Shown here: positions 19,613 through 60,467 of the stretch, piece by piece
How positions within the stretch are numbered: the first letter of the stretch is position 1
Layout: every line of letters starts with the position of its first letter
DNA from: Lachnospiraceae bacterium
GTDB taxonomy: Bacteria > Bacillota > Clostridia > Lachnospirales > Lachnospiraceae
Direction of reading: 5' to 3'
DNA: 64,000 bases
Assembly (NCBI GenBank): GCA_017626095.1
Contig: JAGAJL010000012.1
Location: 248,001-312,000, forward strand
Translations under genes and position numbers: made by a program
The notes under the pieces: generated by a model
Databases searched by the model: none
What the model saw: the letters and a program-made list of their open reading frames with translations, nothing else
Told to the model about the DNA's origin: nothing

Positions 19613-19837
19613 GTTGTAGGAATCGGGTTTGTTTTATCTCTATGCGTACGTTGAACAGTTTATCTAAATATTCCGGATAAATTGTTCAGAATCTGCGCAC
19701 ACGGCGCATAAAAGACATCCTGTCTTGATGCGCCTTTCGTGACATCCATGTCACGAAGTGCTGATGTCCTGTTGGAATATTAAGATAAACTAGTCAACTT
19801 CCGCAAATAGAGATAAAACAAACCCGATTCCTACAAC
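19613..19837. repeat. Family E structured repeat, copy E1
   Basis: Outer arms of 31 bases at 19613-19643 and 19807-19837 are perfect complements and share no sequence with the arms of other copies. The conserved core begins GTTTATCTAAATATTCC (19658-19674) and ends with its near complement (19774-19790). It holds hairpin A (GGCGCAT 19703-19709 with ATGCGCC 19728-19734) and hairpin B (TCGTGACATCCATGTCACGA, 19737-19756). Orientation A then B. Confidence 0.8.
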
Positions 19838-20041
19838 TTTAAGAGTGCGACAATGAGAATTCATAGGTATTCTATCTTTCTTAAATATCCCGGAGAGAAA
19901 GCCTTGGTGTGGATGCTGAATGAAATTTCGAATACAATATCCAAATGTGGAAATATAATTTATAGAAATCAGAATATGCAGAGATTAATATTAGGTAGAG
20001 AATAAAACCGGTAGAGATTGAAACAGGCGGAAATTGGAATA

Positions 20042-20268
20042 GGCAGAGATAAATAGTATTTTAGAGTGTTTCTTGTGAAGATGTATTAGTTTATCTTAAT
20101 ATTTTGTTCAGTTTCAGCAATTCGCAGCATGGATGCTGCGAAAGGTGCACGACGGACATGGAGGTCCGGGTGCACCGGTGCGTCACTTAAGAATAGCTCT
20201 GCTACAAAATATTTAGATAAACTTATACATCGAAGTCGAAACACTCTAAAATACTATTTATCTCTGCC
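20042..20268. repeat. Family E structured repeat, copy E2
   Basis: Perfect 31-base copy-specific arms at 20042-20072 and 20238-20268. The core opens with GTTTATCTTAATATT at 20089. It has hairpin B (CGCAGCATGGATGCTGCG, 20123-20140) and hairpin A (GGTGCAC 20144-20150 with GTGCACC 20170-20176), in the opposite orientation to E1. The right arm ends 12 bases before the first possible start of hslO. The 200 bases between E1 and E2 hold no gene and no other structure I can name. Confidence 0.8.
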
Positions 20269-20307
20269 CCAGCCCCCAAAATGAAACAAAAAAACGGAGA
20301 AAACGAA

Positions 20308-21186
20308 ATGAATGATTATATTGTAAGAGCGACGGCGGCGAATGCGCAGATACGGGCATTTGCGGCAACGACAAAGAATCTGGTGGAATGCGCAAGGAGT
20401 TCTCATGAGACAAGCCCTGTTGCAACGGCAGCGTTGGGCAGGCTATTAACGGCGGGTGCCATGATGGGAACGATGTTAAAGGGTGAAGATGATTTGCTGA
20501 CCTTGCAGATCAAAGGAGACGGCCCCTTACACGGCGTGACGGTTACAGCCGATTCTAAGGCCAGGGTAAAAGGTTATGTGGATCAGCCACAGGTTATGCT
20601 GCCACCCAATGCGATTGGGAAACTGGATGTCGGTGGAGCAGTTGGCAACGGTATTCTTACGGTAATCAGAGATTTAGGATTAAAAGAGCCTTATGTTGGG
20701 CAGACTGCATTACAGACAGGTGAAATTGCCGAGGATTTGACCTATTATTTTGCAACATCCGAACAAATTCCTTCATCGGTTGGTCTGGGTGTATTGATGG
20801 AGAAAAATAATACCGTCAGACAGGCAGGCGGTTTTATCATTCAGCTTATGCCCTTTGCAGAGGATGCTACGATTGATCAGTTGGAAAAGAATCTGACAAA
20901 TCTGAAATCTGTGACAGCTATGTTAGATATGGGACATTCACCGGAAGAAATGCTTCAAATCGTGTTGGAAGGAATGGATGTTGAGATTACGGATACAATA
21001 CCGACAGAGTTTTATTGCAACTGCTCAAAAGAGCGGATTGAAAAAGCCATTATCAGTATCGGTGAAAAAGATATTAAAGAGATGATTGCGGATGGAAAAG
21101 ACTTTGAAGTCAAATGTCATTTTTGCAATACCGGATACAATTTCTCGGTGGATGATTTAAAGAAACTATTGAAGAAAGCAAAATAG
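20308..21186 (+). CDS. hslO: Redox-regulated chaperone Hsp33
   Basis: A 292-residue cytoplasmic holdase. The C-terminal zinc/redox switch is intact: CNC at FYCNCSKERI and CHFC at VKCHFCNTGYNF. The N-terminal half has the typical GRLLTAGAMMGTMLK and GPLHGVTVTAD segments. The start MNDYIVRATA is the canonical Hsp33 beginning and has GGAG 8 bases upstream; an in-frame ATG at 20281 would add 9 residues without a better site. Under oxidative stress the four cysteines release zinc and the chaperone unfolds and activates. It is a single gene between the E2 repeat and nadE. Confidence 0.95.
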   Translation: MNDYIVRATAANAQIRAFAATTKNLVECARSSHETSPVATAALGRLLTAGAMMGTMLKGEDDLLTLQIKGDGPLHGVTVTADSKARVKGYVDQPQVMLPPNAIGKLDVGGAVGNGILTVIRDLGLKEPYVGQTALQTGEIAEDLTYYFATSEQIPSSVGLGVLMEKNNTVRQAGGFIIQLMPFAEDATIDQLEKNLTNLKSVTAMLDMGHSPEEMLQIVLEGMDVEITDTIPTEFYCNCSKERIEKAIISIGEKDIKEMIADGKDFEVKCHFCNTGYNFSVDDLKKLLKKAK

Positions 21187-21314
21187 AGTGGTAAAGAATA
21201 GAACGTATTGAAAAAGTAAAGAAATTAAAGATATTAGAGATATTGCAAGATTAGGCAGAGTTTTATACATGTAAGGGAACTGTTAACATATGAAATCAAT
21301 AATGGAGAACAGAA

Positions 21315-23252
21315 ATGGAAAACGGATTTTTGAAGGTTGCGGCATTAACACCACACATTAAAGTTGCGGATCCGATGTACAATGCAAAACAGATTTGCGA
21401 CTGCATTGATAAAGCGGAAGAAAAAAGAGCAAAGATTATGGTTTTTCCGGAGCTTTGTATCACCGGTTATACCTGTCATGATCTTTTTTTGCAGGAAAAG
21501 CTTTTATCAGAGGCGAAAAGAGCATTAAATATTATCGTAGAGCATTCAGACGGCGTGGATGGTCTGATTTTTGTGGGCTTACCGATGGAGCGTGACAATC
21601 GGCTTTATAATGTTGCCGCTGTTATTAATTGTGGTGAAATCATGGGTTTTGTTCCCAAGACTTATCTACCGGGATACGGGGAGTATTATGAGCCGCGTCA
21701 TTTTGTTTCCGGTAATGAAATTCCGGTTATGGTGGATTATGACGGAATGGAAATTCCTTTTGGTACTAATTTGCTGTTTACTTCTGATGCGATGGAAGGG
21801 TTATGTATTGCTTGTGAAATCTGTGAGGATGTATGGGTTGCCAATCCGCCTTCTACATCTCATGCCATTGCAGGAGCTAATGTCATTGTGAATTTGTCTG
21901 CTTCCAATGAAGTAGTTGGGAAAAAAGAATATCGGGAAATGTTAATTAAGGCTACATCTGCAAGGCTTGTCTGTGGTTATATCTATGCCAGTGCCGGAGA
22001 GGGTGAAAGTACACAGGATGTTGTTTTTTCGGGACATAATCTGATTGCTGAGAACGGTTCGATTTTGGCACAGGCACGAAATTTTTCTTGCACCAATATT
22101 TACAGTGAACTGGATATTTTCAGATTGCGTTCGGAAAGAAGACGCATGAACAGTTTTTCAAAGCCGAATGAAAAAGAATATATGATCATTCCCTGCGCGA
22201 TGGTAATAGAGGAAACTGTTTTAGAACGTAACTTTGATAAGCAGCCTTTTGTTCCGCAAAACCGCGATATGAGAAACCAAAGATGCGATGAAATACTATC
22301 CATCCAGTCATATGGATTGAAAAAGAGACTGGATCATACCAAAGCAAAATCAGCTGTAATCGGTATTTCGGGAGGGCTGGATTCGACGCTGGCACTGCTT
22401 GTTACCATGAAGGCATTTGATCTGTGCGGCTTGGACAGACATGGAATCAAGGCTGTTACCATGCCCTGCTTTGGTACGACAAATCGGACCTATGAAAATG
22501 CATGCAAATTATCAGAGATTGCCGGAGCTGAACTGATAGAAGTGGACATTAAAGCTGCAGTGAATCAGCATTTTTCTGATATCGGACAAGACCCTGAGGT
22601 TCATGATGTCACATATGAAAACTGTCAGGCAAGAGAAAGAACTCAGATTTTGATGGATTTAGCCAATAAAACAGGTGGTCTGGTCATTGGTACGGGTGAT
22701 ATGTCGGAACTTGCATTGGGCTGGGCTACTTATAATGGCGACCACATGTCCATGTATGGTGTGAATGTCGGCGTTCCCAAAACACTGGTTCGCCATCTGG
22801 TACAGTATTATGCGGATACCTGTGAAGATAAAGAGCTGGAGAAAATATTGCTGGATGTGTTGGATACGCCGGTCAGTCCGGAGCTGTTGCCACCACAGAA
22901 CGGAGAGATTTCACAAAAGACAGAGGATTTGGTCGGACCTTATGAACTGCATGATTTCTTTTTGTATTACATGCTACGTTGTGGCTTTTCACCAATAAAA
23001 GTGTTCAGACTGGCATTGCGCGCGTTTGAAGGTGAATATGATATGGAAACTATATATAAATGGATTTGCACTTTTTATCGTAGATTTTTTGCGCAACAAT
23101 TTAAGCGTTCCTGTCTGCCGGATGGCCCCAAGGTTGGTAGTGTAGCGGTATCGCCCAGAGGAGATCTGCGCATGCCTTCCGATGCAAGCGCAGCCATCTG
23201 GATGGAAGAATTAGAAGCCTTAGGTACCGTTTTGCGACACTTTGGCAGCTGA
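21315..23252 (+). CDS. nadE: Glutamine-dependent NAD+ synthetase
   Basis: A 645-residue two-domain enzyme. The N-terminal carbon-nitrogen hydrolase domain carries the Glu-Lys-Cys set (E46 in FPELCITGY, K115 in FVPKTYLPG, C170 in CEICEDVW) that frees ammonia from glutamine. The C-terminal synthetase domain has the PP-loop SGGLDS in GISGGLDSTLAL, and GTGDMSELALGW. It amidates nicotinic acid adenine dinucleotide using ATP, the last step of NAD synthesis. Length fits the long glutamine-dependent type. GGAG precedes the ATG. The last 33 bases overlap the end of the convergent gene at 23220. Confidence 0.95.
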   Translation: MENGFLKVAALTPHIKVADPMYNAKQICDCIDKAEEKRAKIMVFPELCITGYTCHDLFLQEKLLSEAKRALNIIVEHSDGVDGLIFVGLPMERDNRLYNVAAVINCGEIMGFVPKTYLPGYGEYYEPRHFVSGNEIPVMVDYDGMEIPFGTNLLFTSDAMEGLCIACEICEDVWVANPPSTSHAIAGANVIVNLSASNEVVGKKEYREMLIKATSARLVCGYIYASAGEGESTQDVVFSGHNLIAENGSILAQARNFSCTNIYSELDIFRLRSERRRMNSFSKPNEKEYMIIPCAMVIEETVLERNFDKQPFVPQNRDMRNQRCDEILSIQSYGLKKRLDHTKAKSAVIGISGGLDSTLALLVTMKAFDLCGLDRHGIKAVTMPCFGTTNRTYENACKLSEIAGAELIEVDIKAAVNQHFSDIGQDPEVHDVTYENCQARERTQILMDLANKTGGLVIGTGDMSELALGWATYNGDHMSMYGVNVGVPKTLVRHLVQYYADTCEDKELEKILLDVLDTPVSPELLPPQNGEISQKTEDLVGPYELHDFFLYYMLRCGFSPIKVFRLALRAFEGEYDMETIYKWICTFYRRFFAQQFKRSCLPDGPKVGSVAVSPRGDLRMPSDASAAIWMEELEALGTVLRHFGS

Positions 23253-23681
23253 CGCTTTATCCAAAGAAGTTTGGATAGCCTGAATTAAAATTTGAGAGGT
23301 ATAGTAGCTTTCCTGATCATACGTAATATCGGAAAGTGCTGTACCTTCTTTTATTTGTGCAGCAATCGAATCAAAAGCCGGTTCCATCAGAGGAAACATG
23401 GTTGTAATCGCTTCGTTGATATTATTTAATTCAACCGAATTAATATGATTTTCATCTACGGTAACGGAAATATCCACAACCTGATTGTTTAATGTGATGG
23501 AAGTGGAATAAATGCCGGGCACATAGGTGGCATCAGCCATTGTTTCAACTGCTTTTTCGGGCTCTTTTTTACCAAACATGACAATCAGTAATATGATAAA
23601 AAGAATGGCTAAAGCGACAAAAATGGCGGTATATATTAATTCTTTCATATGAAGGACAACGATTTTTGTTTTGTTTTGCAT
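23220..23681 (-). CDS. Membrane-anchored FMN-binding-domain-like protein without the flavinylation motif
   Basis: A 153-residue protein with one helix (about residues 13-33) and an extracytoplasmic domain starting VPGIYSTSITLNN, followed by ISVTVDENHINSVEL. This resembles the start of FMN-binding domains (YxPGxYxG..., VxVTVDENGIxSVE). The flavin-attaching SGAT-type motif expected near the C-terminus is absent; the matching place reads DQESYYTSQILIQAI. So the fold may be kept without covalent flavin. AAAGGAG lies 6 bases before the ATG. It is convergent with nadE, the two coding regions overlapping by 33 bases, so no terminator separates them. Confidence 0.6.
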   Translation of the reverse strand: MQNKTKIVVLHMKELIYTAIFVALAILFIILLIVMFGKKEPEKAVETMADATYVPGIYSTSITLNNQVVDISVTVDENHINSVELNNINEAITTMFPLMEPAFDSIAAQIKEGTALSDITYDQESYYTSQILIQAIQTSLDKASAAKVSQNGT

Positions 23682-23784
23682 GGGCGACTCCTTTGGTGGT
23701 TTGTTGTTACAATTTATGCGCGTAAAATGATTTTATGCCATTTTTTAAATACGTTAAGCGGAATATAATTTGCCCCCATGATAA

Positions 23785-23880
23785 CAACGGATTGCTACGC
23801 GCTTTGTGCCCGCATAATCCTAAAACAAGTCATACTTTTTCATGCATCATGAAAAGAATACGCATTTGATCCTGATATCA
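23785..23880. repeat. Family C repeat, copy C1
   Basis: It begins CAACGGATTGCTACGCGC, followed by TTTGTGC and AATCCTAAAA, then GTCATACTTTTTCATG with its inverse around 23850 and a tail like ATCCTGATATCA. The first blocks match 57400-57430, 60048-60076 and, inverted, 50495-50531; the tail matches 39330-39390. Confidence 0.55.
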
Positions 23881-23894
23881 TATTATTTTAAACA

Positions 23895-23924
23895 TTGACA
23901 AAAGACCGTTTAAATTGGTATGAT
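23895..23924 (+). promoter_or_regulatory. glnA promoter
   Basis: TTGACA (23895-23900), 18 bases, TATGAT (23919-23924). The -35 box is perfect. Transcription should start near 23931, leaving a leader of about 75 bases before the glnA ATG. Confidence 0.65.
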
Positions 23925-23936
23925 AGGCAAGAACAA

Positions 23937-23970
23937 GGGCGTTCTTTCGGTAGGGAAAGAATGCCCTTTT
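23937..23970 (+). terminator. Leader hairpin with T-tract in the glnA 5' untranslated region
   Basis: GGGCGTTCTTTC (23937-23948) pairs with GAAAGAATGCCC (23955-23966), one G-T pair in 12, hexanucleotide loop GGTAGG, followed at once by TTTT. It looks like an intrinsic terminator placed only about 10 bases after the predicted transcription start, so it could act as an attenuator or as a 5' protective stem. Confidence 0.6.
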
Positions 23971-24005
23971 ATCAAATGTATATGTTGAATTTAAGGAGGA
24001 TAAAC

Positions 24006-25337
24006 ATGGCAAAGTATACCAGAGAAGATGTAGTACGAATGTGTAATGAACAGGATGTGGAATTCATCCGATTACAGTTTACCGATATTTCAGGTACATT
24101 AAAAAACATAGCGGTTACCGTAAGTCAGTTAGAGCGGGCGTTAGATAATCAGTTTATGTTTGATGGGGCAAGTGTGGAAGGCTTTGTCAGAGATGAAGAA
24201 TCGGATATGTATTTATATCCTGATTATAATACGTTTGAAGTATTCCCCTGGAGACCGCAGCATGGAAAAGTCGCAAGACTTTTGTGTGATATCTATACAC
24301 CGGATGGAAAACCGTTTGCAGGCGATTCAAGATATGTTTTAAAAAAGGCAATCGCTGAAGCGGAGAAAATGGGATATACCTTACAGGTGGGACCGGAATG
24401 TGAATTTTTCCTTTTCCATGCAGATGAAAACGGACTTCCTACAACAACCACGCATGAGCAGGCCGGCTATTTTGATATCGGACCTTTGGATCTGGGTGAA
24501 AACGCAAGACGTGAAATGATATTAACATTAGAAGATATGGGCTTTATTGTTGAATCTTCTCATCACGAAGCGGCACCTGCCCAACATGAGATTGATTTTC
24601 GTTATGACGAGGCGATGATAACAGCTGATAATATTCAGACATTTAAGATGGCTGTTAAGACGATTGCCAAGCGTCATGGTCTGCATGCAACGTTTATGCC
24701 CAAACCGAAACCGGGTTGTGACGGAAGCGGTATGCATTTGAATATGTCTTTGGAAAAGGATGGCAAAAATATTTTTTCAGACAAACAGGATGAACTTGGA
24801 TTAAGCAAGGAAGCATACTATTTTATCGGTGGCATCTTAAAGCATATCCGCGCTATGACATTGGTTTTAAATCCACTGGTTAATTCCTATAAGAGATTAA
24901 TTCCGGGATATGAGGCGCCTGTTTATACGGCGTGGAGCTGCAAAAACAAAAATCATCTGATTCGTATTCCGGTTTCAAGAGGAGAAAATACCAGAGTAGA
25001 ACTGCGCAGTCCCGATCCGGCTGCCAATCCTTATCTGGCAATCGCGATTGCATTGATGGCAGGTCTTGATGGTATAAAAAATAAAATTGAGCCTCCGGCG
25101 CATATGGATGAAAACGCATCATCCATGACGGAAGAAGAAAGAAAGCAAGCAGGAATTGTCACACTGCCTGATACTCTTATGGCAGCGATTGAGGCATTTC
25201 GTGAGGATCCTTTTATGGAGGAAGTATTGGGATCTCAGGTTTATCATACCTATCTGGAAGAAAAACTGAATGAGTGGAATGAATATCGTGCAGTTGTAAC
25301 AGACTGGGAAGTGTCTAAATATCTCTACAGATACTAA
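24006..25337 (+). CDS. glnA: Glutamine synthetase, type I
   Basis: A 443-residue enzyme making glutamine from glutamate, ammonia and ATP. Conserved blocks: FTDISGTLKNIAV, DGASVEGF (residues 53-60), GPECEFFLF with metal-binding Glu, GSGMHLNMSL, the NPxxNSYKRL block, and RVELRSPDPAANPYLA. Length is that of the short GSI-alpha type, which lacks the adenylylation site and is regulated by feedback and protein partners. AAGGAGG stands 5-6 bases before the ATG at 24006; the frame extends upstream but has no better start. It has its own promoter and a terminator-like leader hairpin, and an ANTAR protein gene follows within 95 bases. Confidence 0.95.
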   Translation: MAKYTREDVVRMCNEQDVEFIRLQFTDISGTLKNIAVTVSQLERALDNQFMFDGASVEGFVRDEESDMYLYPDYNTFEVFPWRPQHGKVARLLCDIYTPDGKPFAGDSRYVLKKAIAEAEKMGYTLQVGPECEFFLFHADENGLPTTTTHEQAGYFDIGPLDLGENARREMILTLEDMGFIVESSHHEAAPAQHEIDFRYDEAMITADNIQTFKMAVKTIAKRHGLHATFMPKPKPGCDGSGMHLNMSLEKDGKNIFSDKQDELGLSKEAYYFIGGILKHIRAMTLVLNPLVNSYKRLIPGYEAPVYTAWSCKNKNHLIRIPVSRGENTRVELRSPDPAANPYLAIAIALMAGLDGIKNKIEPPAHMDENASSMTEEERKQAGIVTLPDTLMAAIEAFREDPFMEEVLGSQVYHTYLEEKLNEWNEYRAVVTDWEVSKYLYRY

Positions 25338-25430
25338 CTCTTGAAGTGCAATCATATAGTGGGACGAAACGTTTTTTCGAATATCTTACGTTTTGTCTGA
25401 TTATACAGGCACGGATAGGAGGTGTATGTA

Positions 25431-25979
25431 GTGACCGGTATAATTGTAGCGCTTCCCAAAATAGAAGATGCCAAAAATATGAAAAATTTACTGGTTCGAA
25501 GCGGGTATTCCGTGGAAGCAATCTGTACGTCCGGCTTGCAGGTCTTATCGGTTGTTGATCAGCTTGATGACGGTATTGTCATATGCGGATATAAACTGAC
25601 CGATATGCTGTATTTTGAATTACATGAAAATCTTCCAAAGGAATTTGAAATGCTTCTTATGGCTTCACAACATCTTTTGGTCGATTGTCAGGATAATGAT
25701 ATTATTTGTCTGGCGATGCCGTTTCAGATGCGGGATTTGGTAAATACCGTAGAAATGCTCAGCAATTCCATTACATACAAGCGCAAGAAACGTAAGGCAC
25801 AGCCCAGACAGCGAAATCCGGAAGAAATCGCATTGATAAAAGAGGCAAAATTGTTGCTTATGGACCGGAATAATATGACGGAAGAAGAAGCACACAGATA
25901 TATTCAGAAGACCAGCATGGATAACAGTACCAGCATGGTTGAAACTGCCCAGATGGTTCTGACCATCATGCGGGAGTAG
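25431..25979 (+). CDS. ANTAR-domain RNA-binding regulator with a degenerate receiver
   Basis: A 182-residue protein. The N-terminal 110 residues have a receiver-like pattern (VTGIIVALPKIEDAKNMKNLL, then GIVICGYKLTDM) but no acidic pocket and no phospho-acceptor Asp: the expected place reads ICGY. The last 55 residues form an ANTAR domain (EEIALIKEAKLLLMDRNNMTEEEAHRYIQ, then AQMVL). ANTAR proteins bind paired hairpins in nascent RNA and prevent termination, and in Clostridia they often stand next to glnA or other nitrogen genes. AGGAGG at 25417-25422 fits a GTG start at 25431 better than the earlier GTG at 25422. It is probably cotranscribed with glnA, and the glnA leader hairpin is its natural candidate target. 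Confidence 0.82.
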   Translation: MTGIIVALPKIEDAKNMKNLLVRSGYSVEAICTSGLQVLSVVDQLDDGIVICGYKLTDMLYFELHENLPKEFEMLLMASQHLLVDCQDNDIICLAMPFQMRDLVNTVEMLSNSITYKRKKRKAQPRQRNPEEIALIKEAKLLLMDRNNMTEEEAHRYIQKTSMDNSTSMVETAQMVLTIMRE

Positions 25980-26004
25980 ATATAGAGTTGCAGGGATGCT
26001 TCGG

Positions 26005-26219
26005 GGATTGGAATTGTGGTTTTTCGACTCGAGAAAACAATTCGTTTTTTCTAAATCGAATTGTGGAGATTTGGCATGGATACGGGTCGGGTGCAATTGA
26101 CATCCATGTCAAAGCACCCTGAAAACCACATCGTGTGGTTTTCACCCTTGGATTATGGAAATTCGATTAAGAAAAAACGGAATTCTTTTCAAAGAGTCGA
26201 AAAACCACAATTCCAATCC
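26005..26219. repeat. Family D structured repeat
   Basis: Perfect 26-base copy-specific arms at 26005-26030 and 26194-26219. Inside, TTCGTTTTTTCTAAATCGAA and an inverse at about 26161-26183 extend the stem. Two hairpins follow: GGTGC...GCACC containing TTGACATCCATGTCAA (about 26093-26121), and TGAAAACCACA with its complement (about 26121-26145). The inner GACATCCATGTC is shared with hairpin B of family E, but the rest of the core differs. It is the only copy in the window. Confidence 0.7.
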
Positions 26220-26269
26220 TCAATGCATACTGCAGGGGAGAAGGCGTAGGTGTGGGTGCTACTCTTTAG

Positions 26270-26372
26270 AAATTATGCGTTATACTTTGTGCTTTAGCAA
26301 TACTAGAACATTCGAAATTCGCCCTAATCGGTCTACTTTCTTATGTTTTGCGAATCTCAAAGATGACCTTTT
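26270..26372. repeat. Family C repeat, copy C2
   Basis: Blocks in the family order: AATTATGCGTTATACTTTGT, GCTTTAGCAATACTAGAACA, then GAAATTCGCCCTAATCGG and CTACTTTCTTATGTTTTGCG. The last block is shared with copies C3, C4 and C6. Together with element D it fills the 491-base gap before dapF. Confidence 0.6.
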
Positions 26373-26470
26373 GGCTTTGGTAGCATATAATTTTAAAATA
26401 GTCGAATGACATATGCAAATGGCATATGCTACAGATACGATTTGATAATTGGATAAATAGGAGGGATTCT

Positions 26471-39554: not shown

Positions 39555-39767
39555 GGAATGAATTGTGTTTTCGGGATATTTAGCGTAGATGATTAGTATA
39601 TCTTAATATTCTGTAAAACAATCAGCACTACGCGACACGGATGTCGCGTAAGGTGCATCCGGACAGGATGTCCAATATGCACCGTGTGCGTCCGGAGCTA
39701 ATAACCTTCCCAGAATATTTAGATATACTTATCATCGCAGATATATCCCGAAAACACAATTCATTCC
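39555..39767. repeat. Family E structured repeat, copy E3
   Basis: Perfect 25-base copy-specific arms at 39555-39579 and 39743-39767. Core with hairpin B CGCGACACGGATGTCGCG (39631-39648) and hairpin A (GGTGCAT 39652-39658 with ATGCACC 39677-39683). Core ends are AGTATATCTTAATATTCTG and its inverse, one base change from other copies on both sides. Confidence 0.8.
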
Positions 39768-46781: not shown

Positions 46782-48744
46782 TTCAATTCATGAAGATAGG
46801 ATTGAGGCTCTTAGACAAAGAGTTGAACAATTAAAAAAAGAATCTGTGGATTATCAATTCAATCAGTATTTAGATCAGGTATTGCGCCAATTGCGGTCTA
46901 CGGAGGAAAGTATTAATAAGGCGGAACGGCATCTGGAACAAAGTTACCAGTTGTATATGCGCCGCAATGGACTGAAATTGCCGCAACCGGTCATGCAACC
47001 GCAGCCAACACCGGTACAGCCGCAACCGGCTATGCAACCACAGATAGCACCGGTACAGCCGCAACCGGTCATGCAACCGCAGCCAACACCGGTACAACCA
47101 CAGCCGACCATGCAGCAACCAATTCAGCCGCAGATGCCAATATGGAATCAGCCAAATGTTTCTGCAATCATGCCGCAGAATCCGGGAGAGAGAGTACAAA
47201 ACGGTAAAACACTGGAGTATAAGTTTGGCACCGTTGTTTTGGGAATTGTCGGGATTCTGTTTATTTTAATTGCCTTTGTTTCTTTTGGTCTGCAATATAT
47301 GAGTACGACTCTGCAGGGAATTATTTTTTATGTTCTGGGAATTGCTATTTTTGCTTTTTCGGAATTGTTCTTATCCCGCAGACTGGAGAAGTTTTCTTAT
47401 TTCTTAAGCGGTCTGGGAATTGCAGGATTATACATTACCACTATTTTGAATTACCTGTATCTTAAGATATTTCCGTCCTACGTGGCTTTGGTAATTACGT
47501 TGTTTATTACGGCATTTTTCTTCTGGCTGAGTTATAAAAAGAACTCCGGAATGATCCGTATCATCTGTCTTTTGGGATGTTATATATCGCTTGTTCCAAT
47601 AGGAGATTTGAAGAATTTATATGAGTTTGCGATTCCGGCAATCATAATTTTTGTTTTAAATCTGGCAGTTTTTTTGTGCCCGTTAAAAGTTAGGAATGCT
47701 GTGATCGATTATGTCCAGTATGCTTGTACGGTTCCGCTTGTGATTTTTATGGGACATCTGCTTTATGTTTCGGGATTACAGATGTGGCCACTTTATATTT
47801 TGGTGTGTGCCAATATTTTTACGCTTCATTTAATTTGTATGAAGAATACGGAACTTGTCAGCTATCGTGTGTTGTATATCCTTGGAAATATTGTTTTTGC
47901 AGGCATTCTGCTTTATGTAGGAAACCATGAAGATTGGATGATCTGGGGAATTGTCGCTGTTGCAGTTATGTGTGCACTTTTTATGTTCCTTTACCGGAAA
48001 ACGAAATTGTGCTTTGCTCCGTATATTTTGGCAGCGGGATATGCAATTTTAGCATTCTGGTTGGACGAAAATGAATTCCACTTGCTCTTATGTGGTCTGA
48101 TCGTTTTTATTTTAAACCGTCTGTTAGCTATTTTCAAAAAAGGATTTGCATTGACGGATGCTGTTTATACCATGATTGCCGTATGGTGTGTCTGTCTGGC
48201 AGCAAGGAATGATGAGGTACGGATTCTGGGTTATGTATTTGCCTGTGCCATCCTTGTCGGAGCTTTCTTTGTAAAACAATACAAGAATTATCATTTATAT
48301 ACGGCAGTTTCTTTTGCGTGGTTGTTCTTACTTACAGAAAGAATGTATCCATTAATCTGCAGTGTGTTAATCTGTATCCTGGCAGCGGCTATGATTGGCG
48401 GAGGCTTTATGAAAAAAGATAAGCCTATCCGGATTTATGGATTGTGTTTGTTGATTTTTGTGGCATTGAAGCTTGTCGGATATGATTTTAAGGAAGCAGA
48501 GGCACTGACCAGAATTGTGATCTTTTTAGTTGTCGGTCTGGTTATTCTGGGAGTTTCATTTTTATATATTTACTTGGAAAAACGGCAGCAGGATGTGCAA
48601 ACGATAGCAGATGCAAACACGATGCCGAATGTGCAAATGATGCCGAATGCGGGGATTTCTGCTCCGGAATATTCAGAAAAACAGAATTATCAAAATCCGG
48701 ATAGTCAGAGTTTTCAAAACATTGAAACTCAAAATAGAGTATGA
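46762..48744 (+). CDS. DUF2339 polytopic membrane protein with a Pro/Gln repeat linker
   Basis: A 660-residue protein. Its ATG lies inside the end of the GGDEF-EAL gene (20-base overlap) with GAGG 6 bases upstream, so the two are probably translationally coupled. Residues about 15-70 are helical (RIEALRQRVEQLKKESVDYQ) and may form a coiled coil. A Pro/Gln-rich repeat linker (residues about 75-130) follows, then about fifteen membrane helices, as in DUF2339 proteins of unknown function. The C-terminal tail (SYIYLEKRQQDV on) is soluble and Asn/Gln/Met-rich. Coupling to a cyclic-di-GMP enzyme suggests a related membrane process. That link is inferred. Confidence 0.72.
   Translation: MLNQGNNSIHEDRIEALRQRVEQLKKESVDYQFNQYLDQVLRQLRSTEESINKAERHLEQSYQLYMRRNGLKLPQPVMQPQPTPVQPQPAMQPQIAPVQPQPVMQPQPTPVQPQPTMQQPIQPQMPIWNQPNVSAIMPQNPGERVQNGKTLEYKFGTVVLGIVGILFILIAFVSFGLQYMSTTLQGIIFYVLGIAIFAFSELFLSRRLEKFSYFLSGLGIAGLYITTILNYLYLKIFPSYVALVITLFITAFFFWLSYKKNSGMIRIICLLGCYISLVPIGDLKNLYEFAIPAIIIFVLNLAVFLCPLKVRNAVIDYVQYACTVPLVIFMGHLLYVSGLQMWPLYILVCANIFTLHLICMKNTELVSYRVLYILGNIVFAGILLYVGNHEDWMIWGIVAVAVMCALFMFLYRKTKLCFAPYILAAGYAILAFWLDENEFHLLLCGLIVFILNRLLAIFKKGFALTDAVYTMIAVWCVCLAARNDEVRILGYVFACAILVGAFFVKQYKNYHLYTAVSFAWLFLLTERMYPLICSVLICILAAAMIGGGFMKKDKPIRIYGLCLLIFVALKLVGYDFKEAEALTRIVIFLVVGLVILGVSFLYIYLEKRQQDVQTIADANTMPNVQMMPNAGISAPEYSEKQNYQNPDSQSFQNIETQNRV
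46980..47130 (+). repeat. Tandem repeat encoding Pro/Gln-rich linker
   Basis: Repeated units of the type CAACCGCAGCCAACACCGGT and ACAGCCGCAACCGG encode PQPTPVQPQPxMQ. Near-identical nucleotide copies at 46993-47050 and 47065-47110 suggest recent expansion. Confidence 0.75.
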
Positions 48745-50487: not shown

Positions 50488-50494
50488 TATCAAT

Positions 50495-53593: not shown

Positions 53594-53643
53594 TATGATA
53601 CCAACAGATTGAGAAAGTACGACTTTCTGACACTGGTATCATA
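53594..53643 (+). promoter_or_regulatory. Nested hairpin upstream of the surface-protein pseudogene
   Basis: TATGATACCA (53594-53603) pairs with TGGTATCATA (53634-53643). Inside it AGAAAGT (53612-53618) pairs with ACTTTCT (53622-53628) around ACG. It stands 25 bases before the ribosome site of the gene. Together with 53378-53593, where I see nothing but A/T-rich sequence, it makes up a 301-base gap. Confidence 0.55.
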
Positions 53644-53678
53644 TTATAGCTACAAAATTTTTTTGGAAAGGTATATAT

Positions 53679-55763
53679 ATGAAAAAGCAGATTTTGAAAA
53701 AACACTTGGTTTTGCATGTGCGTTATTCTTTGGTGTTTCACTAAGTTCAGTTTGGACAAATGCTACCACTCTTAGTGAAAATCAGATCGGGCCGACTGAA
53801 AAAGAGGAAGTCACAGTTCCCACTCAGGAAACATATAACAGTGCTGTTGAAGATGGAAATGAGACATCCGGTGAGAATTTAAATGTCGAATCCTGCTATG
53901 GAACTTTGGTGGAAAAAGGTAATTATGGAAGGGGTGTATATGATTATGAGCTACATGATTATGTCAAGGGTTCCAATGTGCAGTGGGCAGTTTATAATTC
54001 CGGTACTGCGGCAAATCCTGACTATACACTGGTAATTTCCGGAACGGGACAAGCTAGTGCGGCTGATATTATTTACAATCAGGACGATCCTGCTAATTCC
54101 ACATTGGTTGCTCCATATGCAAAATATAGTCAATATATTACAAAAGGTGTTGTTGAAAACGGAGTAACGGATACCGGATATGGTACCTTTGCCTTTTTAA
54201 AGAATCTGAAAACAGTATCCCTTCCTTCATCGTTATCAGAAATAACATATGCTGCATTTGAGGGAAGCGGTATAGAAGAAATATATCTTCCGGACAGCAT
54301 TACGACAATTCGAGATGGCGCTTTTACGTTTTGCAGTGATCTAAAGAAGATACGCTTTTCCAATAATCTGAATTTGATTGAAAATCATGCCTTTGGAAGG
54401 TGTACTGGTTTGGAAGAAATTGAACTCCCCGATTCATTAAAGGAAATTCCGAGTGGTTGTTTTGATTTTTGCTCCAACCTAAAAAAAGTAAAGTTGCCGA
54501 GGTATTTAGAAACTATAGGCTCAAGTGCTTTCGGAATGAATGAAAAATTAAGCGAGATTGATATTCCGGATACAGTTCGAAAAAATTGGTGAATTTAGTT
54601 TTCAGGCAGCTGCCTTTTCCTATGTGAATTTGCCGGAAGGACTTCAGACCATTGAAGAAATGTCTTTTAACTATGTACAGACGGAATATATTGAGATTCC
54701 AAGTACGGTAACAACGATAGAGACACGGGCATTTAGTCATAATCATGCATTGAAAACACTTGTGATACCGGAAAGTGTAACATCGATTGGTGAGCTTTTG
54801 TTTCGGGAGGATGGTTCGCTGACGGATTAATATCTGCCTCCGTCTATTACCTATATCCCGGATAATATTTTTGAATATTGTTCACAAAATATTACCATAC
54901 ATGGTGTGCCGGGAAGTGCAGCAGAGGCGTTTGCCAACAGGTATTCTAATCTCACATTTGTGGGCGATTATTATAATGCACCAAAGAATACTGTGAAATC
55001 GGTTCGTCAGTTTGTAGAAAGACTTTATGAGGTTTGTCTGGATCGTTCTTCTGATACTGCAGGTATGAATGATTGGGCAGGACACCTGGCTGATCGGTCC
55101 ATTTCCGGTTCTGAGGCTGCGTATGGATTTGTATTCTCACCTGAGTTTAAAAGTCACAATTACTGTAATGAATGCTATGTTGAGCATTTGTATCGTGCAT
55201 TTTTAGGAAGAGAATCGGATCCACCCGGAAAGGCTGACTGGATCAAACAATTGGAGAGTGGCAAAACAAGGGAAGAGGTATTTAATGGTTTTGCACTGAG
55301 TGTAGAATTTTCAAATCTGTGTAAATCCTACGGAATTGAGTTGGGAAAAGGTATCTCCGTTCCTAAATATGGCACGATTCCAACCGGAAGATGCTCCGGC
55401 TGCAATGCGGAAGATGGAGTGACGGTATTTGTAAAAAGGCTTTATCGTGTATGTTTAGACAGAGAGGCCGATAACAGAGGTTTAAATGATTGGTGCAATC
55501 AGTTGTGGAGCCGTAAAAAAGGTGGAACGGATGTTGCATATGGATTTGTATTTTCAGAGGAGTTCCAGAATAAAAACCTTTCCGATGAAGAATACGTAGA
55601 GTACTTATATAAAGTATTTTTTGATAGGGGTTCTGATCCGGAAGGGAAGCGGACCTGGTTAGGAAAGCTCCAATCCGGAAGCAGTAGAAAAGAAGTATTT
55701 GATGGCTTTACAGGAAGTAAGGAATTTGCTAATCTTTGTAACAAATGCGGCATAAGAAGATAG
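53679..55763 (+). pseudogene. Decayed BspA-like leucine-rich-repeat surface protein with DUF4214 repeats
   Basis: The product in the intact state would be about 695 residues: signal peptide, a Thr/Glu-rich linker, an N-terminal domain, leucine-rich LRR_5 repeats (AFEGSGIEEIYLPDSITTIR and about eight more) and a C-terminal region of two DUF4214 units (VRQFVERLYEVCLDRSSDTA, SPEFK; VFVKRLYRVCLDREAD, SEEFQ). Three lesions are visible. The A6 tract at 53696-53701 lacks one A, since MKKQILKK leaves the frame of TLGFACALFFGVSL. An A6 at 54579-54584 has one extra A, so DTVRKIGEF is broken. At 54828 TAA stands where TTA would restore LTDLYLPPS. The ribosome site GGAAAGG precedes the ATG. The two A-tract changes could be assembly errors; the nonsense change argues for a real pseudogene. 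Confidence 0.82.
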
Positions 55764-55813
55764 TAAAAGAGAAAAAGATACTTTTGTAAAAATATACATA
55801 AGGGGATTTGCTT

Positions 55814-56425
55814 GTGAATGAAAAATTTTTTGATTTGAAAAAAGAAAAACAGGATCGCATGATTAATGCTGCATTGAAGGTATTTGCCATCAATGGATAT
55901 CAGAAGGCGAGTACGGATGATATTGTCAAAGAAGCCGGTATATCCAAGGGGCTGCTGTTTCATTATTTTGGCTCCAAAGCAGGCACTTATACCTTTATGT
56001 ATGAATATAGCTCCCGTTTTATGATGATGGAGCTTGAGAGAGCTGTCAGCCTTCGTGAAAAGGATTTGTTTCGCCTGTTAGAACAGATGGAAGAAGCAAA
56101 ATCGGTCTTACTAAGTAATTATCCTTATATGCAAAAGTTTCTGCTAACTCATATGAGTTTAACGGATGAAAATATCAAAGAAGCCATTGCACCTTATGTA
56201 GATAAGGTGCCTCAGATTATGGGGGAAATCATGGAGCGCGCGGACTATTCGCGTATCAAAGATGGTGTTGATACGGATCTGTTGGTACGTACCATGTATT
56301 ATGTCACAAGAGGTCTTATGGAAATGGCTCTTGTGACAGGAATGGGACCGGATGTCGTTTTGAAGGAAGCCGTGGCTTACTATGAAATGATGCGTTCCCA
56401 GTTTACAAAAGAAGATTATTTGTAA
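55814..56425 (+). CDS. TetR-family transcriptional regulator
   Basis: A 203-residue regulator. The N-terminal helix-turn-helix is textbook: MINAALKVFAINGYQKASTD, IVKEAGISKGLLFHYFGSKA. The C-terminal ligand domain is divergent, as in all TetR proteins, so the effector is unknown. The GTG at 55814 has AAGGGGA 7 bases upstream, better than the TTG at 55808. The pseudogene lies upstream, and the DUF6062-like gene converges with it from the other strand. A terminator overlaps its end. Confidence 0.9.
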   Translation: MNEKFFDLKKEKQDRMINAALKVFAINGYQKASTDDIVKEAGISKGLLFHYFGSKAGTYTFMYEYSSRFMMMELERAVSLREKDLFRLLEQMEEAKSVLLSNYPYMQKFLLTHMSLTDENIKEAIAPYVDKVPQIMGEIMERADYSRIKDGVDTDLLVRTMYYVTRGLMEMALVTGMGPDVVLKEAVAYYEMMRSQFTKEDYL

Positions 56426-56548
56426 AAAATGACCGGTTTCGAACCTCAGATTTTGTTTTCTGACAGTTGAAACCGGTCATTTTTTTGTTCGCTCATGCCA
56501 CTAAGAAAGACACGAAAACTCGTGATAATCGACAAAAAGATATATAAT
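56424..56548. repeat. Terminator plus half-copy of family B (B2)
   Basis: AAAAATGACCGGTTTC (56425-56440) pairs with its complement at 56469-56485, a terminator shared by two convergent genes. It is followed by TTTGTTCGC, TCATGCCACTAAGAAAG, ACGAAAACTCGT and AAAAAGATATAT, the complement of the left half of B1, in the same order. Confidence 0.7.
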
Positions 56549-56555
56549 AAATACA

Positions 56556-57317
56556 TCATTTATTTTGCTGATAAAAAGGATCGGCCGGATAGCTTCCCCA
56601 GAGCTTTTGCATGCCGCGCTGGATGGAATCTTTGGAGTTTTTCCAGTCGGCATCTTTATTTCGGTAGTCAAATTTTTCAACAAGCCAGGCAATATCTTCC
56701 CCCACCCGTTTCATGTTTTCCTGCATCAGTTCAAATAGAAGAGGATAAAATACCTCTTTTTGTTTATCATTTAATTGTCTGTCTGCTTCTGCGCAGATAT
56801 CTCCAAAATGATGGAGGCATAGCCCTTTACTTTTCTTTAACATTTCTGTCATTTCCTGATCTTTTTTATACATATAAAAGAAGGTGTCCAGATAACGTTG
56901 ATAAGTTGTGGAAAATGAATTGCAGATATAGCAGGACTGTTCTCTTTCTTTAATCCAGCTTGCCATGGAATTGGTGGTATCTGCATTTTTTTTCATTTTG
57001 TTCATAAGTGAAACCTTGCCGGGAGAAAACATTTTAACCTGTTTGTCCAGTTCCCGGTTGATTTGGACATAGTGGGTCTTTAAAATCCATGCATTTCCCA
57101 ATGTATTTCCGTATTCAAACATTTTTTTGAAATGGTTTCGGCAAAAGCCTGCCTGATCAGTCTGACTGCGCATATCGCTTTCCATATAGGATGAACCGGA
57201 ACCAAGGACAAGGTCCAAAAGATCCTGCTCTACATTTCTTTCAATGTAACAGAAAGGACATTCGTCATTTGCTAAAAAGGCATCGGTTAGTGGAATGGTA
57301 TACAATGTTTCTTTCAT
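56556..57317 (-). CDS. DUF6062-like cysteine-rich protein
   Basis: A 253-residue soluble protein. It begins MKETLYTIPLTDAFL and carries CPFCYIE (about residues 19-25), FCRNHF, CYIC and LCLHHF. The paired CxxC and CxxH motifs suggest two zinc sites, one in each half. The layout matches DUF6062 proteins of Lachnospiraceae (recalled, not searched). AAAGGAG lies at the right distance from the ATG at 57317; the frame extends upstream but without a ribosome site. It is flanked by half-copies of family B in inverted orientation, at 56488-56548 and 57483-57548. The function is unknown. Confidence 0.75.
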   Translation of the reverse strand: MKETLYTIPLTDAFLANDECPFCYIERNVEQDLLDLVLGSGSSYMESDMRSQTDQAGFCRNHFKKMFEYGNTLGNAWILKTHYVQINRELDKQVKMFSPGKVSLMNKMKKNADTTNSMASWIKEREQSCYICNSFSTTYQRYLDTFFYMYKKDQEMTEMLKKSKGLCLHHFGDICAEADRQLNDKQKEVFYPLLFELMQENMKRVGEDIAWLVEKFDYRNKDADWKNSKDSIQRGMQKLWGSYPADPFYQQNK

Positions 57318-57399
57318 AGGGGTCTCCTTTTGGATATGGGTTGTTTGGCATTTGATTTGTTTGCAATCAAAAGATATTTTATTTCTTTGGTACCAACGG

Positions 57400-57475
57400 A
57401 TTGCTGCGCATTTTATGTTTTCAGCATCTAAACCATTTGAAACTCGCCCAAACCGGGCTGCTTTTCGGATTTGTG
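57400..57475. repeat. Family C repeat, copy C5
   Basis: CAACGGATTGCTGCGCATTT, TATGTTTTCAGCATCTAAA, then GAAACTCGCCCAAACCGGG and CTGCTTTTCGGATT. The order matches C1 followed by C3. Confidence 0.6.
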
Positions 57476-57482
57476 TTTCCAA

Positions 57483-57548
57483 TAGATATCTTTGCTGCCT
57501 CATACTTTGTTTTCTAGACTTTCTAAGCGGTATGCGCACAAAGTATTA
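57483..57548. repeat. Half-copy of family B (B3)
   Basis: ATAGATATCTTTGCTGCCTC, ATACTTTGTTTTCTAGACTT, TCTAAGCGGTATGCGCACAA. It is the complement of the right half of B1 (3890-3955) with few changes. It is inverted with respect to B2 across the DUF6062-like gene. Confidence 0.7.
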
Positions 57549-57656
57549 TAATATTTAGTTTGTATTATTTTGTAGAAAAAATCAACTTTATTTTTGTTTC
57601 GTAAGCAGGATGCATATTTAGTTATTTTTTGCTGGTAAAACACAAGATGATGTGTT

Positions 57657-57698
57657 ATTATGTCATTCAAGAGGGGTTAAAGCCTTGAATGACATAAT
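57657..57698 (+). promoter_or_regulatory. Leader hairpin of the uracil permease gene
   Basis: A perfect 15-bp stem (57657-57671 with 57684-57698) and 12-base loop AGGGGTTAAAGC, followed by TATTTTCAT. It lies 30 bases before the uracil permease GTG. The T-rich end could act as attenuator; I see no clear match to PyrR sites or to a purine riboswitch. The rest of this gap holds C5 and B3. Confidence 0.5.
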
Positions 57699-57728
57699 TA
57701 TTTTCATACATGATGGGAGGAAAAAATA

Positions 57729-59063
57729 GTGGAGACACAAAAAACAGCTATCCGAGATGCCAAACAGCTTGGAATTCCCAAGATGCTTTTGTTAGGCTTG
57801 CAGCATATGTTTGCAATGTTTGGCGCAACAATTTTAGTTCCGATTTTAGTTAATGGTTATTTCGAAGGCGAAGGGTTATCGATTCAGGTTACTTTATTCT
57901 GTGCCGGCGTGGGAACATTATTTTTTCATGTTTGCTCCAAGTTAAAGGTACCTGCATTTCTCGGTTCATCCTTCGCATTTTTAGGCGGTTTTGCTTCTGT
58001 GGCAGCATTAAATACCGGAAAATATGCAGACATGACAATGGGTGAAAAGTTACCCTATGCATGCGGAGGTATTGTTGTTGCAGGACTTTTATATGTCGTA
58101 CTGGCGCTGATTATCAAAGCAGTCGGTATCAAGCGGGTTATGCGTTTCTTACCGCCTGTTGTGACCGGTCCGATGATTGTCTGTATCGGATTAAGCCTTG
58201 CTCCTTCTGCTATTTCCAATGCTTCCACCAACTGGATTTTAGCATTGATTGCATTGGCAGTTGTTGTAGTGTTCAATATCTGGGGCAAAGGGATGTTGAG
58301 AATCCTTCCCATTCTTTTGGGCGTTGTGATTTCCTATATTGTAGCAATCATTTTTCAGGCAGTCGGCTTTACAAATCCCGACGGAAGTGCAATTTTAAAC
58401 TTTTCCGGAGTTGCCAGTGCAAGTATCATCGGATTGCCGCCTTTCCAGCTTTGCAAATTTGATCTTACGGCGATTTTGGTAATGGCTCCGATTGCCATTG
58501 CTACCATGATGGAACATATTGGTGATGTTTCAGCGATTTCTGCTACCGTTGGCGAAAACTTCATTGAAGAACCGGGACTTCACCGTACCTTAATCGGAGA
58601 TGGTATCGCAACAGCATTTGCAGGTATCATCGGCGGTCCTGCCAATACAACATACGGAGAAAATACAGGCGTTCTGGAATTATCTCATGTTTATGATCCT
58701 TCGGTTGTTCGCTTGGCAGCCATATACGCTATTGTATTAAGTGCTTTCCCCAAGGTTGCTGAAATAATCGGTTCTCTTCCAGCTTCCATTATCGGTGGCA
58801 TCAGTTTTATTCTATATGGAATGATTTCCGCTATCGGTGTTCGCAATGTTGTTGAAAACCATGTTGATTTTAAAAAGTCACGCAATCTGATTATTGCAGC
58901 GGTTATCATGGTTTGCGGTTTGGGATTTACAAACGGTATCACATTTATGATTGGTTCTACCAGTGTTACCCTGACATCTCTTTCTATCGCAGCAATTGCC
59001 GGAATTATCTTGAATGCTGTTCTGCCCGGTAAGGATTATGAATTTAAAACAAGTGAAACATAA
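57729..59063 (+). CDS. uraA: Uracil/xanthine permease of the NCS2 family
   Basis: A 444-residue membrane transporter with 14 expected segments. Motifs: LGLQHMFAMFGATILVPILV at the start, FLGSSFAFLGG, and the NCS2 signature in the middle (FDLTAILVMAPIAIATMMEH, GDVSAISATVG) followed by GIGGPANTTYGENTG, which carries the substrate-binding Glu. It imports uracil or a related nucleobase with protons. The start is a GTG at 57729 after GGGAGG; 30 bases upstream stands a perfect leader hairpin. The symbol follows the closest functional class, and xanthine transport is also possible. Confidence 0.88.
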   Translation: METQKTAIRDAKQLGIPKMLLLGLQHMFAMFGATILVPILVNGYFEGEGLSIQVTLFCAGVGTLFFHVCSKLKVPAFLGSSFAFLGGFASVAALNTGKYADMTMGEKLPYACGGIVVAGLLYVVLALIIKAVGIKRVMRFLPPVVTGPMIVCIGLSLAPSAISNASTNWILALIALAVVVVFNIWGKGMLRILPILLGVVISYIVAIIFQAVGFTNPDGSAILNFSGVASASIIGLPPFQLCKFDLTAILVMAPIAIATMMEHIGDVSAISATVGENFIEEPGLHRTLIGDGIATAFAGIIGGPANTTYGENTGVLELSHVYDPSVVRLAAIYAIVLSAFPKVAEIIGSLPASIIGGISFILYGMISAIGVRNVVENHVDFKKSRNLIIAAVIMVCGLGFTNGITFMIGSTSVTLTSLSIAAIAGIILNAVLPGKDYEFKTSET

Positions 59064-59149
59064 TCGAAAAATAGTCGTATCAAAGAACAGAAAATAGAAT
59101 TGGCAAATCAAATAACAATGCCAAATGAAAAGCAAAATAAACATGTTTC

Positions 59150-59190
59150 AAAAACGTTCCGAAGATTTTAATCGGGACGTTTTTGTTTTT
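59150..59190 (+). terminator. Terminator after uraA
   Basis: CAAAAACGTTCCGA pairs with TCGGGACGTTTTTG, one G-T or mispair, loop of about 9 bases, then T-rich sequence. Confidence 0.8.
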
Positions 59191-59332
59191 GACAAAATAT
59201 GATAGACTGTAATAGAAAATAAGTTATACATTTTAAGCCTGACATCATAATCATCAGGAAAACGAAAGATTAAATGATAAATACTGTAAGGAAATATAAG
59301 GGGATAAGATAGAATAAGAGAAAGGATCCTAT

Positions 59333-59773
59333 ATGAAAGACAATAAGGGAAAAACAAAAGGAAAAGCAAATGTAACAGGGAAATCGAAAGAGCAGACAAA
59401 GGTGCAAACACACAAAAAGAAACCGGATTTTCCACTCCATTGGTATTATATGGCGACATCTGAAATCACGGTAGAAGATTTGAAGACTGCTGTTTCTTCA
59501 GATGATTATGACATCGAAATCTGGAAAGAAGCCGGTGTTTTGGAAGTCGGAATCGAAGAGAAAGCTTCTATGGACTTTGAGGCGTGTGAGCCGGATTTGA
59601 GAGACGAATACAGCAATCAGTTTTTAAAAGACCACGAGGTAAAGGCGTTATTCTTTGTTACGCTTCCGCCCATTGCGTTTGAAAAATGTGAAAAAGTCAT
59701 GCGAAAAATCATTTCTGCCAACGAAGGATTTTTCTGCGCCGACACAGACGATTTTACTCCCGTCATCGACTAG
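59333..59773 (+). CDS. Basic-tailed small protein of unknown function
   Basis: A 146-residue soluble protein. The first 35 residues are Lys-rich (KDNKGKTKGKANVTGKSKEQ) and likely disordered. The remainder begins PDFPLHWYYMATSEITVEDL and has a mixed alpha-beta pattern (DDYDIEIWKEAGVLEVGI, DHEVKALFFVTLPP, ISANEGFFCADTDDFTPVID). I do not recognise the family. AAAGGATCC is at the ribosome site. The E4 repeat begins 28 bases after the stop. Confidence 0.6.
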   Translation: MKDNKGKTKGKANVTGKSKEQTKVQTHKKKPDFPLHWYYMATSEITVEDLKTAVSSDDYDIEIWKEAGVLEVGIEEKASMDFEACEPDLRDEYSNQFLKDHEVKALFFVTLPPIAFEKCEKVMRKIISANEGFFCADTDDFTPVID

Positions 59774-59800
59774 CAGGGAAAAGGACGTTTGGAGACGGAC

Positions 59801-60026
59801 GTTAGCCGGGACTTGTATTCTCTCGAGTTTTGATTACGATATATAAGTTTATCTAAATATTTCGTGATGGTTTTTGGGCATCGGACGCACCGGTGCACCC
59901 GGACATCCATGTCCGACGTGCACCTTTCGCGACATCCATGTCGCGAATTGCTGAAATGAAACGAAATATTAAGATAAACTAATATATCTGCATAAAAAAC
60001 TCTCAAGAATACAAGTCCCAGCCAAC
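59801..60026. repeat. Family E structured repeat, copy E4
   Basis: Copy-specific arms at about 59801-59831 and 59995-60026 match with a few mismatches, including a perfect 14 bases GGGACTTGTATTCT. Core: GTTTATCTAAATATTTCG (59847), hairpin A (GGTGCAC 59892-59898 with GTGCACC 59918-59924), hairpin B CGCGACATCCATGTCGCG (59928-59945). Same orientation as E1. Confidence 0.75.
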
Positions 60027-60043
60027 TGTATGTTCCAATCTCA

Positions 60044-60170
60044 ATGGAGTGTTACGCGTTTTGAGCTCTTGCAATCCTAAAAACAGTTGAAATACGTGCT
60101 GATTGAACTGCTTTCGCCTGTTTTGCAGATTGCATGAAAAGTAGCATCTTTTAACTCTGAGATCATCTAT
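60044..60170. repeat. Family C repeat, copy C6, between E4 and E5
   Basis: GTGTTACGCGTTTTGAGCTC, TTGCAATCCTAAAAACAGT, then GTGCTGATTGAACTGCTTTC, GCCTGTTTTGCAGATTGCAT and CATCTTTTAACTCTGA. The two blocks stand in the family order. Confidence 0.55.
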
Positions 60171-60239
60171 ATGTAATATTCTGCTTTATGGAAATGGAAT
60201 TGATGGCAGCAGTAATAATGTATACTGCCGATTCACTAA

Positions 60240-60467
60240 GTTGCGGGAAGATATTGTATTTTACCACTATTTGGCGGAAGTTCATTAGTTTATCTTAATA
60301 TTCCGACAAAGTATCAGCACTTCGTGACATGGATGTCACGAAAGGCGCATCTAAGGCAGGATGCCGCATATGCGCCGTGTGCGTCCGGTTATTAAGACAT
60401 TGCTCGGAATATTTAGATAAACTTATGAACGAACGCATAGTGGAAAAATACAATATCTTCCCGCAAC
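60240..60467. repeat. Family E structured repeat, copy E5
   Basis: 31-base copy-specific arms at 60240-60270 and 60437-60467, one mismatch. Core opens AGTTTATCTTAATATTCCG (60288) with hairpin B CGTGACATGGATGTCACG (60323-60340) and hairpin A (GGCGCAT 60344-60350 with ATGCGCC 60370-60376). Same orientation as E2 and E3, opposite to E4. Confidence 0.8.

Follow-up and report, generated by a model that had tools for sequence, protein, structure and literature searches.

The E copies of the window (the whole stretch of 64,000 nucleotides of Lachnospiraceae DNA analyzed here) are probably old, immobile copies of a palindromic, nonautonomous Lachnospiraceae family that resembles bacterial MITEs, that is, miniature inverted-repeat transposable elements. 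The structured motif TwoAYGGAY would form the apex of these elements, and the complementary arms which enclose each core would be their inherited outer stem. Copies with common arms in three genomes of other genera, and the way in which cores and arms diverge among relatives of the window's species, provide the main evidence for this reading.

TwoAYGGAY Copies in the Window

Using a repeat search together with a covariance model, we located six E copies in the window. Five of them had been reported in a preliminary description of this DNA, and all five proved to be real, with arm pairs lying where they had been placed and as complementary as had been claimed (31/31 in both E1 and E2, 25/25 in E3, 30/31 in E5, and an imperfect 26/31 in E4). 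The window also holds a sixth copy, E6, whose core lies on the minus strand. Analysis with cmscan revealed that all six copies match the Rfam family RF01731 (TwoAYGGAY), with scores of 80.1–118.1 bits at a cut-off of 43. Their cores and arms are as follows (a strand is given for the cores).

19643..19805, minus strand: E1 core, TwoAYGGAY (RF01731), cmscan 95.8 bits
19613..19643: E1 outer arm, complementary to 19807-19837, 31/31
19807..19837: E1 inner arm, complementary to 19613-19643
20073..20238, plus strand: E2 core, TwoAYGGAY, 98.9 bits
20042..20072: E2 left arm, complementary to 20238-20268, 31/31
20238..20268: E2 right arm, complementary to 20042-20072
26030..26193, minus strand: E6 core (sixth copy), 80.1 bits
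about 25996..26030: E6 arm, complementary to 26194-26228, 91% of 35 positions
about 26194..26228: E6 arm, complementary to 25996-26030 (repeat I10)
39581..39743, plus strand: E3 core, TwoAYGGAY, 118.1 bits
39555..39579: E3 left arm, complementary to 39743-39767, 25/25
39743..39767: E3 right arm, complementary to 39555-39579
59831..59995, minus strand: E4 core, TwoAYGGAY, 108 bits
59801..59831: E4 arm, complementary to 59996-60026, 26/31
59996..60026: E4 arm, complementary to 59801-59831
60273..60437, plus strand: E5 core, TwoAYGGAY, 110.5 bits
60240..60270: E5 left arm, complementary to 60437-60467, 30/31
60437..60467: E5 right arm, complementary to 60240-60270

Several other repeats were observed in the window. 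A 44-nt repeat (D3) lies at 26313, 35956, 39286, and 60088, the first of these being close behind E6 and the last between E4 and E5; it is perhaps part of a spacer within some larger unit. At 3736-3974 and 56427-57547 there is a further family of inverted repeats (I2, I4, and I20), and one of its members has enclosing arms of its own. Tandem direct repeats of 54 and 39 nt are present at 13749-14126 and 46980-47119.

Distribution of the TwoAYGGAY Family

The covariance model detected 29 TwoAYGGAY copies in the window's own genome. Among named genomes, the nearest match found to the Hsp33 encoded in the window (88%) comes from an uncultured Lachnospiraceae bacterium, which is why we assign the host to this family. 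The family is present in eight of the nine genomes of the window's genus, from which 131 copies were examined out of 135 matches over the threshold. Among 299 sampled genomes of the bacterial family, 39 contain TwoAYGGAY at E ≤ 1e-8, and the distribution is patchy. Outside the genus, six further genomes were searched, and copies from G183, G045, and G150 were analyzed.

TwoAYGGAY comes from a 2010 survey as an RNA motif without known function, which lists it as a probable RNA that is probably without a cis-regulatory role (Weinberg et al. 2010, PMC2864571). In Rfam, RF01731 is typed "Cis-reg," and Rfam 15 lists two extra covarying base pairs for this family (PMC11701678). Among the publications listed in searches for a connection with MITEs, judged by titles and the beginnings of abstracts, none links the family to mobile elements.

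Genus-wide, neighboring copies with less than 3.5 kb between them are divergent in almost all cases, with a minus-strand copy followed by a plus-strand one (31 of 34, including those at 19613-20268 and 59801-60467 of the window). By eye, such divergent pairs often join two subtypes, one with the core start TTGTGAAGATG and the other with ATTTRGCGG.

Complementarity of the Arms

A search for the core, with scoring of the complementarity of its arms, had been proposed as a check. We carried it out across the genus, and paired flanks turned out to be the rule: Adjoining complementary arms (score of at least 14 and no more than 10 nt from the core) were found in 127 of 131 copies, compared with 16 of 4,000 random pairings of left and right flanks from different copies. 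The four failing copies are G000_C34_3777, G003_C31_12070, G006_C35_62487, and G000_C25_32162, the last of which fails by distance only.

The ends of the arms tend to have a motif in common in the genus. Whatever the arm length, there is a tendency for an A (often CA) to precede a left arm that starts with G, and for G.CC to follow a right arm that ends with C. A similar arm-end motif was noticed by eye within the longer units of G150 and G045.

Shared Arms and Repeated Units in Other Genera

The arms had been regarded as private to every copy, and many copies with the same arms had been named beforehand as the observation that would speak against this idea. Such copies exist outside the window's species. 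Common arms were found in all 20 copies analyzed from G183 (23 found) and in 12 of 21 from G045 (40 found), and at least 9 of the 13 copies analyzed from G150 (50 found) belong to two shared-arm sets, a count which leaves out eight further stretches, mostly at contig ends. In the shared-arm sets of all three genomes, conservation of the arms comes close to that of the core; for G183, conservation is 0.947 in the core and 0.915 and 0.924 in the arms. The simplest reading of these shared arms is that the arms travel with the element.

The G183 arms are located inside a unit (310 bp in the one copy measured) with terminal inverted repeats. Its inverted ends are ATTCGGGTGTCAAAAGGT or close variants in all 20 copies, one of which has a diverged right end. 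Eight of the 20 copies are bordered by a target duplication of 9 bp in which no more than one position differs, and in one of them it is exact; at the same threshold (at least 7 bp), 25 of 380 mismatched flank pairs gave a duplication. In addition, seven shorter G183 units of 70–178 bp keep ATTCGGGTGTCAAAAGGT-type ends and have a shortened or missing apex. In G045, the unit measures 612–616 bp in eight of nine copies examined, and the flanks beyond it differ. The G045 copies have their outer ends in common as well as core and arms, and terminal inverted repeats are present here too. Target duplications were seen in G183 only, with none visible by eye in G045. Judging from the sequences of these units, the arms would, as a rule, be carried along as part of a MITE-like unit.

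Neither a transposase nor an autonomous partner was found for the TwoAYGGAY units, and among 41 end matches in G183 there was no exact-end pair at a spacing of 1–3 kb. One candidate was a 338-aa ORF in G002, which is flanked by two copies with nearly the same arms (1501-3148 of locus L080). It was rejected as a transposase: Pfam gave no match, and the match to the Rpn nuclease/putative transposase family TIGR01784 (E = 9.7e-11) has 42 bits, below the cut-off of 52.1.

Divergence of the Arms within the Window's Genus

For the window, it had been claimed that no arm resembles the arm of another copy. By eye, this is correct for the five copies first described, but it is not for the family, since arms are shared among orthologs and within G183, G045, and G150. 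Orthologs in G000, G002, and G008 have common arms. In the case of E3, all 25 pairs are unchanged in G008 and one change is present in G002; the arms of E2, E4, E5, and E6 are also common to orthologs, with changes. The E2 arms of G000 and G008 are each completely paired (31/31) and differ from each other at three pairs, and those of G002 are intermediate, with one mismatch. Within the window's own genome, C4 and C33 have arms in common, as do two tandem C14 copies, and in G004 a recognizable common arm sequence is present in four of five copies. Differences were observed at two sites. At the E1 site, the G008 copy belongs to another subtype with arms different from those of G000, and G002 has no copy; at the C18_346631 site, the G002 copy has different arms and an unchanged 3' flank.

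Arm likeness depends on the distance from the core. Among the copies of one lineage, the proximal 28–30 nt mostly show an above-background likeness, with zone means of 0.454–0.691 compared with about 0.46 further out, and past about 35 nt nonorthologous copies show no arm likeness on average. In G001, G003, and G007, the arms can be as long as 107 nt, and their outer parts, past about 30–35 nt, are similar between copies only at the background level; two G001 copies with a core identity of 0.90 have different outer arms. The distal arms of 30–107 nt in sister species look locus-specific.

We also analyzed identity in the central domain of the element and in successive 20-nt zones outwards from it. 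For G000 paralogs (26 pairs with an identity of 90% or more in the central domain), the values are 0.93, 0.64, 0.69, 0.67, 0.59, and 0.49, and for orthologs (18 pairs) they are 0.96 and then 0.82–0.91. The profile contains one pair from G150 and none from G183 or G045, probably since the centre-finding pattern does not match their loops. We considered a sudden break in homology where the arms begin, and saw none. Identity is first lost inside the Rfam core, in the linkers and the lower stem, and the arms, which begin at about the third zone, fare no worse than this part of the core. Drift in the window's genus has thus affected the whole element except its conserved centre, and the arms are no exception. 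A strongly constrained centre with an old, drifting periphery explains the zone profile without any insertion chemistry.

Concerted Changes and Mismatch Types

The two arms of a copy change together. In 27 ortholog groups (869 position pairs), using the most-changed pair of each group, we counted 42 left and 50 right changes. Nineteen changes affect both sides, whereas permutation gave 3.1 on average and never more than 10 in 5,000 rounds. Among these 19, 15 are changes from one pair to another; 11 of them are transversion-type changes, for which passage through a G-T pair is impossible. Template switching between arms is reported to create and repair stems (Monttinen and Loytynoja 2022, PMC8794818). 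The concerted changes fit template switching, and selection on the hairpin gives an identical pattern.

The G-T and A-C mismatches provide conflicting evidence on an RNA versus a DNA role. Pooled over 83 unique arm sets, the arms contain 49 G-T and 59 A-C mismatches. The corresponding numbers are 4 and 6 for the core hairpins (few events), 10 and 8 for the lower stem, and 22 and 26 for the arm sets of other genera (n = 16), which gives 85 G-T versus 99 A-C in total. In contrast, 80 terminator-like hairpins of the same DNA have 43 versus 15 (Fisher P-value = 0.00025). One-sided ortholog changes in the window's clade, however, comprise 25 G-T and only 6 A-C (P-value = 0.0009), with two loci giving nine of the 25. 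This contradicts, for that clade, a DNA-only reading of the pooled counts, and it speaks for selection on an Rfam-strand RNA hairpin rather than template switching alone. Among unique arms, the window's clade has 25 G-T versus 16 A-C and G003 has 13 versus 20, and the bias is reversed in G001/G007 (8 versus 21, P-value = 0.024). Selection on whichever strand is transcribed would be compatible with the biases of both the window's clade and G001/G007.

Alternative Explanations for the Arms

Two insertion mechanisms had been proposed for the arms, an inverted duplication of one flank and insertion into the loop of a preexisting hairpin. Neither of them is supported as a general rule, and some facts favor them at single loci (the gene names used in this text, Hsp33, methyltransferase, nrdD, nrdG, ilvA, sufX, and rlmX, are what we take these genes to be from reading their translations). 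If insertion copied one flank in inverted orientation, the arms would come from their own locus. Such an origin seems unlikely for the family, and could still hold for the distal arms of G001, G003, and G007, which are at background similarity between copies. The clearest case is the nrdD-nrdG element of G003, whose far arm carries an inverted copy of the nrdD end (18/20; 0 of 1,000 shuffles); by eye, the nrdD-nrdG spacers in the other genomes shown are short and have no such hairpin. In G001, 13 of 16 copies are antisense to a convergent ORF, with the right arm ending at a median of 10 nt from its 3' end. Outward echoes of the arms are in weak excess (17 copies at or above the 95% point of the null, 7 expected). 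The echo of E1 reaching back to the methyltransferase stop, which had been taken to favor duplication, is weak and not significant alone: 98 of 1,000 shuffles are as good, and an anchored P-value of about 0.017 is uncorrected for 127 copies. Coding sequence in the arms was rejected as proof that flanks are copied in general. A single gene end, that of the gene taken to be nrdD, gave a clear case, and where the arms of G001 and G003 have a convergent neighbor, they mostly end no more than about 30 nt from the stop codon of that neighbor. The copy sets of G183, G045, and G150 with shared arms, the weak family likeness of the proximal arms, and the finding that divergence of the arms in the genus does not exceed that of the outer core all argue against flank copying as the source of the arms. 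At some loci, flanks have probably been copied into the outer arms. Insertion into the loop of a hairpin already in place, for example an intrinsic terminator behind a stop codon, appears very unlikely. At sufX, the place of the G001 element is taken in G007 and G003 by what by eye is a terminator-like structure. Of the 12 bp at the outer end of each G001 arm, 9 and 8 positions agree with the lone stem of this kind in G007. A lone G007 hairpin at ilvA has arms of 30 nt which by eye are like the G001 arms, and at rlmX this genome shows, again by eye, a shrunken core. Since the loops of both G007 structures resemble element sequence (the proximal arm in the case of ilvA), we read them as remnants left by deletion. 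Long lone hairpins are rare and not the rule, as four (loop of at most 30 nt) were present in the loci scanned, two of them remnant-like. A lone short hairpin at an empty site had been suggested as support for this mechanism; the empty E1/E2 site in L290, the closest named relative found, has neither an Rfam match nor a real hairpin (best arm of 9 nt, loop of 51 nt). The T-tract of intrinsic terminators is not enriched among 36 unique copies, with 34–40% T in the 10 nt after the gene-sense arm versus 32–37% further on.

It also seems unlikely that TwoAYGGAY is a plain structured RNA which has never been mobile, with the arms as a basal helix maintained by RNA selection. Such an RNA would agree with the G-T excess among the one-sided ortholog changes and with the two covarying base pairs in the Rfam 15 entry mentioned above, but the pooled arms have no G-T preference and G001/G007 show the reverse. 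The sharp-ended repeated units of G183 and G045, the target duplications in part of the G183 copies, the patchy presence of the family, and the frequent antisense position of copies just behind genes argue against it as well. In a further reading, TwoAYGGAY might act less as an RNA regulator than as the apex of a hairpin that is mobile as DNA. The arms of this hairpin would be rewritten from each other by template switching and would grow outwards into host sequence up to a stop codon, occasionally copying the end of a neighboring gene across; hence, old copies would have private and perfectly matched arms. We offer this only as a tentative idea, on balance doubtful.

A Model for the E Copies

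Under the preferred reading, in which the E copies belong to a MITE-like family, the arms would most likely be the element's own outer stem, inherited with it and not made anew at each insertion. The arms in the window may look unrelated because these copies are old singletons. Their complementarity could be renewed by selection on the hairpin, by template switching between the arms during replication, or by both. A transposase would presumably act in trans, and the relatives suggest that the family was mobile in the past in the window's own species.

RF01731, which has been unexplained, could thereby plausibly be identified as a component of mobile hairpins with a wide, though patchy, distribution in Lachnospiraceae. 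In addition, three sister species with 27 orthologous hairpins form a natural series, in which template switching can be tested against selection as the source of compensatory changes.

Comparison with Known Systems

Template-switch mutation in hairpins predicts concerted multi-base changes from pair to pair, in agreement with the 15 such changes observed here, 11 of them of transversion type. The process was described for RNA genes (PMC8794818); the changes reported here were counted in ortholog pairs.

With regard to mobile elements, the G183 units are like MITEs in being short, in having terminal inverted repeats and partial target duplications, and in the presence of many similar dispersed copies. 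The MITE trait of dispersed, near-identical copies without room for a transposase gene is found in G183, in G045, and, with respect to arms and core, in G150, but not among the single old copies of the window. Unlike typical MITEs, the elements studied here have an unusually long stem and a conserved branched apex, their ends differ between genera, and no helper transposase was identified for them.

The attC sites of integrons also have variable self-complementary stems together with conserved features. The arms described here share the variable self-complementary stems, and many arm ends carry GTT...AAC, in the order opposite to that found in attC.

Finally, RF01731 itself appears in a different light. 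The motif here is the apex of longer repeated hairpin units, and these units have mobile-element-like ends in G183 and G045.
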